Shown here one piece after another: positions 54,247 to 55,390 of a stretch of 64,000 nucleotides of DNA (within the stretch, counting starts at the first letter, position 1; every line of letters starts with the position of its first letter). Location of the stretch: positions 1-64,000 of the forward strand of contig SVMB01000009.1 in NCBI GenBank assembly GCA_015067675.1. Direction: 5' to 3'. The position numbers and the translations under genes are program-made. Under the pieces are notes generated by a model. That model worked only from the letters and a program-made list of their open reading frames with translations, was not told where the DNA came from and ran no database searches. This DNA is from Oscillospiraceae bacterium. Lineage in GTDB: Bacteria > Bacillota > Clostridia > Oscillospirales > QAMX01.

Positions 54247-54275
54247 TTGACCGTGCAATAATTTTGGCGTATACT
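54247..54275 (+). promoter_or_regulatory. corA promoter TTGACC-17-TATACT
   Basis: TTGACC 54247-54252, TATACT 54270-54275. Confidence 0.75.
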
Positions 54276-54328
54276 GATTCTGTTGGATACATTTATGCAT
54301 CCCCATTTCATGTTAAGGAAGTGAGTTC

Positions 54329-54373
54329 ATGGACCCCGCCCCCGGACGAAGTAGGACCCGTACATACCGTTAG
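54329..54373 (+). CDS. Candidate leader peptide ORF, MDPAPGRSRTRTYR
   Basis: Shine-Dalgarno-like AAGGAAGTGA at 54315-54324, 4 nt before the ATG; in the leader of the CorA gene; resembles enterobacterial MgtL in layout and composition. Confidence 0.5.
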   Translation: MDPAPGRSRTRTYR

Positions 54374-54382
54374 TCTGCAGGT

Positions 54383-54440
54383 ACAGTATCCTCCATTACA
54401 GGGCACTGTGCTTTGCGGCTCATGCCCAAAAAGGAGGATA
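54383..54440 (+). promoter_or_regulatory. Mutually exclusive leader structures, including an SD-sequestering stem for corA
   Basis: ACAGTATCCT(54383-54392)/AGGGCACTGT(54400-54409) versus TATCCTCC(54387-54394)/GGAGGATA(54433-54440) plus GGGCA(54401-54405)/TGCCC(54423-54427). Confidence 0.5.
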
Positions 54441-54445
54441 TCCCT

Positions 54446-55390
54446 ATGATGAAGATTTACAAGACCTTCGACGGTCTTCTGCGCACACTCGATGTGCCCG
54501 AAAAGGACTGCTGGATCTCGCTGGTGAAGCCCACGCCTGAGGAACAGCAAAGCATCAGTGAGCGTTACAACATCGATTCCGCGGACCTGAGCGCCGCGCT
54601 GGACGATGACGAACGTTCCCGTATCGCCATCGAGGACGGCTATACGCTGATTCTCGTGGACGTCCCCACCGTCGAAGAACGCAGCGGCAAGGACTGGTAC
54701 GTCACCCTGCCGCTGGCCATCATCCTGCTGCCCGACGCGGTCATTACCGTCTGTCTGGAGGATACGCCGATCCTGAGCTTTTTTGATAACCGGCGCATCC
54801 GGAGTTTTCATACCTACATGAAAACCCGTTTCGTTCTGCAGATTCTCTACCGCAACGCCACTCTGTTCCTGCAGTATCTGCGCGCAATCCATAAAAAAAG
54901 CGAACAGCTTGAGCAGAAGCTGCAGGCATCCACCCAGAACCGGGAGCTTCTGGAGCTTCTGGAGCTGGAAAAGAGCCTTCTCTACTTCACCACCTCCCTC
55001 AAGGGAAACGATGCGGTGCTGGATAAGCTTCTCAAATCCAATTCCATCCCCAAGTACCCCGAGGACACCGATCTGCTGGAGGATGTCATCGTCGAAAACC
55101 GCCAGGCCATGGAGATGGCCGGCATCTACAGCGGCATTCTGCGCGGCATGGCCGACGCCTTTGCCTCCATCATCTCCAACAACCTCAACATCGTCATGAA
55201 GGTTCTGGCCATTGTGACCATCGTCCTCTCCATCCCCACGATGATCTTCTCCGCCTACGGCATGAACGTCAGCATGGGCAGTATGCCTTTTGCGGGGCAT
55301 CCGTTCGCGTTCCCGATTATTCTGGGTATCTCCATGGTGCTCGCCGGTGTTGTAGCGCTCTGCTTTGTCAAGCTGCGCACCTTCCGCTGA
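54446..55390 (+). CDS. corA: CorA-family divalent cation transporter
   Basis: C-terminal VLSIPTMIFSAYGMNV (GMN motif) and two TM segments. Confidence 0.93.
   Translation: MMKIYKTFDGLLRTLDVPEKDCWISLVKPTPEEQQSISERYNIDSADLSAALDDDERSRIAIEDGYTLILVDVPTVEERSGKDWYVTLPLAIILLPDAVITVCLEDTPILSFFDNRRIRSFHTYMKTRFVLQILYRNATLFLQYLRAIHKKSEQLEQKLQASTQNRELLELLELEKSLLYFTTSLKGNDAVLDKLLKSNSIPKYPEDTDLLEDVIVENRQAMEMAGIYSGILRGMADAFASIISNNLNIVMKVLAIVTIVLSIPTMIFSAYGMNVSMGSMPFAGHPFAFPIILGISMVLAGVVALCFVKLRTFR

Follow-up and report, generated by a model that had tools for sequence, protein, structure and literature searches.

A candidate Mg2+-sensing leader peptide upstream of corA and mgtE in Clostridia

The corA locus and its leader

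The window, i.e., the whole stretch of 64,000 nucleotides from an Oscillospiraceae bacterium (contig SVMB01000009.1) that we analysed, carries on its forward strand a gene for a 314-aa Mg2+ transporter of the CorA family (54446..55390; PF01544, E 3.8e-54) with an ATG start codon at 54446, a stop codon at 55388-55390 and a Shine-Dalgarno (SD) sequence, AGGAGGA, read at 54432..54438. Immediately 5' of the corA leader lies a gene for a small DUF2752 protein (PF10825; 53896-54228). A sigma-70-type promoter, TTGACC-17-TATACT, is found at 54247..54275 on the same strand with its -35 hexamer at 54247-54252 and its -10 hexamer at 54270-54275, separated by a 17-nt spacer; this assignment is a consensus match only (10 of 12 positions), and the region holds two promoter-like sites where 0.5 would be expected.

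Between this promoter and corA, an SD sequence read as AAGGAAGTGA (54315..54324, forward strand) precedes a leader ORF (uORF) of 14 codons plus TAG, MDPAPGRSRTRTYR, that extends over 54329..54373 from its ATG at 54329 to its stop codon at 54371-54373, which lies 56 nt ahead of the corA SD. An earlier note on this DNA had described the promoter, the short ORF and its SD, and all of them are indeed present. The peptide begins with the N-terminal motif common to clostridial corA leaders: its codons 2-5 (54332..54343) specify Asp-Pro-Ala-Pro, a proposed ribosome-destabilising or pausing motif that can be compared to the class consensus [D/E/S]-x-[D/E/G]-P and to the EPDP of MgtL. Asp2, Pro3 and Pro5 are in place, but codon 4 of this MDPAP start encodes Ala and not Asp or Glu, so that the peptide of the window is a weaker instance of the class. 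Right after the motif, following Pro5-Gly6, come the uncommon codons CGA-AGT-AGG (54347..54355); in five genes of the window, CGA and AGG each make up 4 of 155 Arg codons and AGT 11 of 134 Ser codons.

In a phylogenetic tree, the CorA of the window clusters with Fournierella, and its closest relatives come from two Fournierella massiliensis loci (L002 and L003) whose CorA proteins are 71% and 67% identical to it. Their uORFs encode MDTDPGRSRMI and MDADPGRSRMI, respectively, and 14 nt, CCCGGACGAAGTAG, are common to the window, L002 and L003. Other genomes of the family to which the genome bin of the window is assigned yielded no close homologue of corA, with a single partial match in one of them (G007). 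Given this absence, the Fournierella grouping of CorA and the size of the bin (3.67 Mb with a completeness of 73%), either the contig could have been binned wrongly or corA could have been transferred.

The leader ORF across clostridial magnesium transporter genes

The absence of the uORF from homologous leaders had been named in the earlier note as a refutation of its reading. We compared 237 distinct clostridial corA leaders, of which 116 contain an ORF of 7-45 codons that is preceded by an SD and starts with M-x-x-[D/E/G]-P. Dinucleotide-preserving shuffles gave 4.2 +/- 1.9 (at most 10), and no such ORF occurs in 169 leaders that belong to neighbouring ORFs at these loci. The position of the proline is specific: 131 of the 237 leaders have Pro at codon 5 where 27.6 would be expected, whereas codons 4, 6 and 7 show little or no enrichment (16, 30 and 46 leaders vs. 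ca. 28 expected). For residue and codon tallies we used 107 uORFs with distinct 5' ends that were chosen for Pro5. Codon 4 of these is mostly Asp (67), Gly (22) or Glu (12) and codon 2 Asp (37), Ser (27) or Glu (22), which gives the class consensus M-[D/E/S]-x-[D/E/G]-P. It is the peptide that is conserved here and not the RNA: start codons vary between ATG, GTG and TTG, all four Pro codons are used at codon 5 (CCT 72, CCC 19, CCG 11, CCA 5), and a downstream AGT codon described below moves in steps of three nucleotides, which together rule out conservation at the RNA level.

Beyond approximately codon 9 little is conserved, and the uORFs range from 11 to 45 codons in length with free C-termini. 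Conservation that is restricted to the N-terminus is, at the level of sequence, what characterises a cis-acting leader peptide whose first residues matter. That the uORF would instead encode a small working protein is scarcely credible: a conserved and well-initiated small ORF would be expected in that case as well, but not conservation that is confined to the first 5-9 codons while length and C-terminus vary freely. In approximately half of the corA genes that we sampled, no uORF could be detected, and its presence or absence changes at least 37 times on the tree.

Some other leader architectures were encountered in the course of this survey. Leader ORFs of an M-D-D-P variant, i.e., with Pro at codon 4, precede corA in more distant Bacillota (L345, L352, L358 and L362), in one case behind an M-box (L345). 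In L203, L204, L221 and L236-L238, the uORF stops at the corA SD or a few nucleotides away from it in an architecture without a spacer hairpin. Finally, L017 and L047 share an identical 23-codon ORF without Pro5, MDSGSSYHAETEDGRERIPALDF, ca. 140 nt 5' of corA.

Directly after Pro5, the 107 uORFs display a marked preference for particular codons. Ser at codons 6-9 is encoded by AGT in 85% of cases (12% in corA genes) and Arg at the same positions by CGA in 52% (5% in corA genes), and 78 of the uORFs have AGT or CGA within codons 6-10 where the corA codon usage of each species would predict 13.3 +/- 3.1. Both triplets follow the reading frame (70/3/1 for AGT, i.e., 70 in frame and four out of frame, and 50/12/2 for CGA), the in-frame AGT shifts by whole codons between codons 6, 7, 8 and 9, and no AGT/CGA bias is seen from codon 12 onward. 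This comparison establishes, as far as sequences can tell, codon-level selection on AGT and CGA in the start region of the uORF. Both codons would be expected to be decoded slowly due to wobble pairing.

The same uORF is also found in front of mgtE, a Mg2+ transporter gene unrelated to corA, with 9 of 68 leaders matching compared to 1.0 (at most 4) in shuffles; the codons CGA-AGT-AGG of one of these (L291) are identical to those of the window. Pattern scans that were blind to the downstream gene pointed the same way. Across 197 genomes there were two matches, one before corA (L322, identical in location to L127) and one (L323) before a gene that we take to be mgtE from reading its sequence, without a profile search. 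The order to which the window belongs was covered by 150 genomes: eight of the 12 matches there were in frame, and all eight lay before corA, while the other four were out of frame. A very strict pattern gave a single match. Moreover, an M-box riboswitch lies directly 5' of the uORF at several corA (L125-L130 and L322) and mgtE genes (L262, L265, L284 and L306), though no M-box (RF00380) was detected in the leader of the window. Where the two adjoin, a single mRNA may carry two consecutive Mg2+ sensors, M-box and leader ORF. The presence of this uORF before mgtE and beside M-boxes lends independent support to the link to Mg2+ proposed in the earlier note.

Among six leaders of P-type Mg2+ ATPase genes, none had a strict match to the uORF. 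One mgtA-type leader (L279) contains a possibly related ORF, MDGSPDGLCN, and two others (L276 and L277) a weaker MEPDG stretch within a longer ORF, in L276 behind an M-box.

These associations bear on what the leader might sense. It could respond to general translation trouble, e.g., altered activity of EF-P or ABC-F factors, ribosomes pausing at Pro or at charged amino acids, or a shortage of the tRNAs for AGT and CGA, so that corA would rise upon any early pause in the uORF and Mg2+ would act only indirectly. The codon signal, which concerns precisely AGT and CGA, would fit such a scenario, as would the observation that Asp-Pro repeats stall Bacillus subtilis ribosomes without EF-P and that this stalling is relieved by EF-P or YfmR (PMC11381351). 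However, we consider it unlikely in view of the attachment of the uORF to unrelated families of Mg2+ transporters (corA and mgtE), its position next to M-boxes and the fact that no other kind of downstream gene emerged from the gene-blind scans. An amino acid attenuator for Pro or Arg was rejected because of the single conserved Pro, the variable Arg content and the Mg2+ transporter genes downstream. For the same reason of a single conserved Pro, and with no link to proline genes, the suggestion that the leader doubles as a proline sensor had to be dropped.

Competing folds and access to the corA ribosome-binding site

Downstream of the uORF, the leader of the window can adopt two predicted folds. 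Stem-loop A (54377..54416, forward strand; -15.6 kcal/mol, z -2.8) brings 54377-54392 and 54400-54416 together in approximately 15 pairs, interrupted by a single A.C mismatch and a single bulge, and would represent the ON state by sequestering the anti-SD sequence. Its 5' arm starts 3 nt past the uORF stop, so that the base of the stem would be covered by a ribosome positioned at the stop codon. Stem-loop B (54386..54441, forward strand) would represent the OFF state by hiding the corA SD: 54386-54394 pairs with 54433-54441 and an inner stem joins 54401-54405 to 54423-54427, with exact complementarity in both parts (TATCCTCC/GGAGGATA and GGGCA/TGCCC). Of all folds of the spacer, it has the lowest predicted energy (-26.9 kcal/mol, z -2.6 vs. 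shuffles). The two stems use common bases and are consequently mutually exclusive, as the earlier note had proposed; both are present and B is exact as described, but A is longer than the 10 pairs it had been credited with. Opening the corA SD is predicted to cost 7.3 kcal/mol when the leader is free and 11.7 kcal/mol when the region of the uORF stop is masked. The leaders of L002 and L003 carry an analogous pair of A/B stems, and the opening cost of L002 rises from 6.0 to 9.6 kcal/mol upon masking.

Sequestration of the corA SD is also seen in the wider set of leaders. Across 99 of them, the opening cost is 5.46 kcal/mol compared to 3.18 kcal/mol with a shuffled spacer (p 5e-13), and the spacer fold has a mean z of -2.3. 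An alternative fold that lacks the SD arm is also more stable than expected (mean z -0.78, p 1e-6), and in 82 of 114 cases it clashes with the SD hairpin. The stems of the window have too few alignable relatives for a covariation analysis, which was instead performed on the 11 leaders of one alignable clade other than the window's. In this clade, helix 2:3, which frees the corA SD, and helix 3:4, which hides it, both need arm 3 and exclude each other. With the helix register picked on the same alignment that was used for the test, helix 2:3 is 100% paired in counted cells and 4 of its 6 pairs show double compensatory changes; its score was matched in 2 of 500 shuffles, and slid versions fell far short of it. 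Helix 3:4 is 93% paired, and since 43-65 of 500 shuffles scored as high, its covariation support is weaker. Conservation of two competing stems, as anticipated in the earlier note, is thus borne out, in a clade other than that of the window, by two helices that exclude each other and show compensatory changes. Arm 2 lies inside the uORF in these leaders, and a ribosome that moves past approximately codon 14 would therefore break helix 2:3.

Competing helices with compensatory changes and strong sequestration of the SD are also what one would expect of a metal-binding RNA switch that is governed solely by its folds, with the short ORF doing no more than letting ribosomes in to keep the leader open. 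We nevertheless find this very improbable: primary sequence and helices vary by clade, while the N-terminus of the peptide, its reading frame and its codons are kept, and the leader has no match in Rfam. Neither the leader of the window nor those of 20 relatives matched any Rfam family at the gathering score, and permissive settings gave none either. This, together with the confinement of the published motif to Gammaproteobacteria, also led us to reject the gammaproteobacterial corA motif/corL as the identity of the leader.

The geometry of the switch varies between clades, and the tightening of the SD upon masking of the uORF stop does not extend to the set as a whole, in which only 17 of 99 leaders rise by more than 1 kcal/mol (12% of shuffles do so). 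A simple version of the mechanism with a ribosome sitting at the stop codon therefore misfits some leaders. The gap between uORF stop and SD has a median of 36.5 nt, and the stop lies within 30 nt of the SD in 32 of 99 leaders, in which masking the stop lowers the cost of opening the SD. A ribosome terminating at such a distance would open the hairpin, which could speak for translational coupling, i.e., full translation of the uORF turning corA on by opening hairpin B, and the uORFs that end at the SD in L203, L204 and L237 would suit this model as well. However, it sits poorly with the median gap and with the 56 nt found in the window, and a faltering uORF start would then cut expression of the importer at low Mg2+, which is the wrong direction. 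We therefore regard coupling as decidedly unlikely.

Proposed mechanism and relation to known magnesium leaders

Our favoured interpretation, to which we assign a probability of roughly 0.7, is that the leader encodes a Mg2+-sensing, cis-acting peptide that is read via the translating ribosome and would control access to the corA ribosome-binding site. With sufficient Mg2+, the ribosome would get past M-[D/E]-x-[D/E]-P and the uncommon AGT/CGA codons and reach the uORF stop, where it would cover the 5' arm of stem A or, where this arm lies within the uORF, unwind it. Stem B could then form and hide the SD, leaving corA off. At low Mg2+, the ribosome would pause or, as we suspect, drop off rather than stall stably within the first 5-10 codons, so that the anti-anti-SD stem A would form, the SD would be free and CorA would be made. 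Completion of the uORF would thus correspond to the OFF state and an early pause or drop-off to the ON state.

We take the clostridial leaders to be Mg2+-responsive because of their N-terminal chemistry, which resembles MgtL and mgtQ, their type of switch and the function of their targets. In enterobacteria, the ribosome dissociates at low Mg2+ while making the EPDP of MgtL, upon which the leader refolds and mgtA is turned on (PMC11282234, PMC11552253); both articles refer here to intrinsic ribosome destabilization (Chadani 2017), and EPDP has been named the destabilizing motif of MgtL (PMC11282234). The stalling of EF-P-deficient B. subtilis ribosomes at Asp-Pro repeats (PMC11381351) also counts in favour of our interpretation. 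The mgtL leader of mgtA in E. coli and Salmonella and the clostridial leader both have a short uORF ahead of a Mg2+ transporter gene, acidic residues and Pro in the first codons (MEPDP in MgtL), albeit as a likeness of a short N-terminal motif, and two mutually exclusive folds, which for the clostridial leader come from prediction and covariation. Efficient translation of the uORF represses in the mgtL system, and the same is predicted here. The resemblance to MgtL suggested in the earlier note therefore holds at the functional N-terminus (EPDP, PMC11282234), while the Arg-rich end that it had also invoked is not the conserved part. Unlike mgtL, the clostridial leader is found in Bacillota, its uORF has one conserved Pro together with AGT/CGA codons, the downstream genes are corA and mgtE, and its visible output is a hidden ribosome-binding site, whereas that of mgtL is Rho-dependent termination. 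Drop-off at low Mg2+ has been published for enterobacterial peptides, which are richer in acidic residues and Pro.

The closest mechanistic match is mgtQ of the Salmonella mgtCBR operon, a short ORF with Asp2 and Glu5 at which a switch between stems 1:2 + 3:4 and 2:3 frees the ribosome-binding site of the Mg2+ transporter gene mgtB (PMC8092293). However, mgtQ is enterobacterial, intergenic in an operon and without link to corA or mgtE, and its Pro codon is dispensable for the translation-mediated effect (PMC8092293). The gammaproteobacterial corL/corA motif likewise combines a uORF and alternative folds before a corA gene that responds to intracellular Mg2+ (PMC11552253, PMC6429828), but corL has fewer acidic and Pro residues and acts via Rho, and the corA motif RNA has been reported in Gammaproteobacteria only (PMC6429828). 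The M-box (ykoK, RF00380), finally, precedes the same genes in Bacillota and is found directly 5' of the uORF in several genomes, though it is an RNA aptamer and not a leader ORF.

More broadly, we lean towards the view that these leaders belong to a class of Mg2+-sensing leader peptides that is widespread in Bacillota and common to unrelated importers (CorA, MgtE and perhaps MgtA), often located behind an M-box, in which a minimal N-terminal acidic-x-x-Pro motif and conserved uncommon AGU/CGA codons would time pausing or drop-off. The ribosome itself would then be the Mg2+ sensor, in a system either convergent with MgtL or older. We found no description of this leader in open-access full texts; subscription papers were outside the scope of our literature search, and the claim of a previously undescribed Mg2+ sensor is therefore provisional.

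In the literature that we examined, destabilization of the ribosome by the nascent chain as a means of Mg2+ sensing is described for enterobacteria only. If our interpretation is true, it would become a general principle that operates via corA and mgtE across Clostridia, in some cases as a second Mg2+ sensor stacked on an M-box, and more than 100 natural variants would be at hand to delimit the minimal motif. The AGT/CGA signal further raises the question of whether slow decoding, beyond the peptide itself, sets the Mg2+ threshold. Control of CorA and MgtE by such leaders would then be predicted in major gut commensals.
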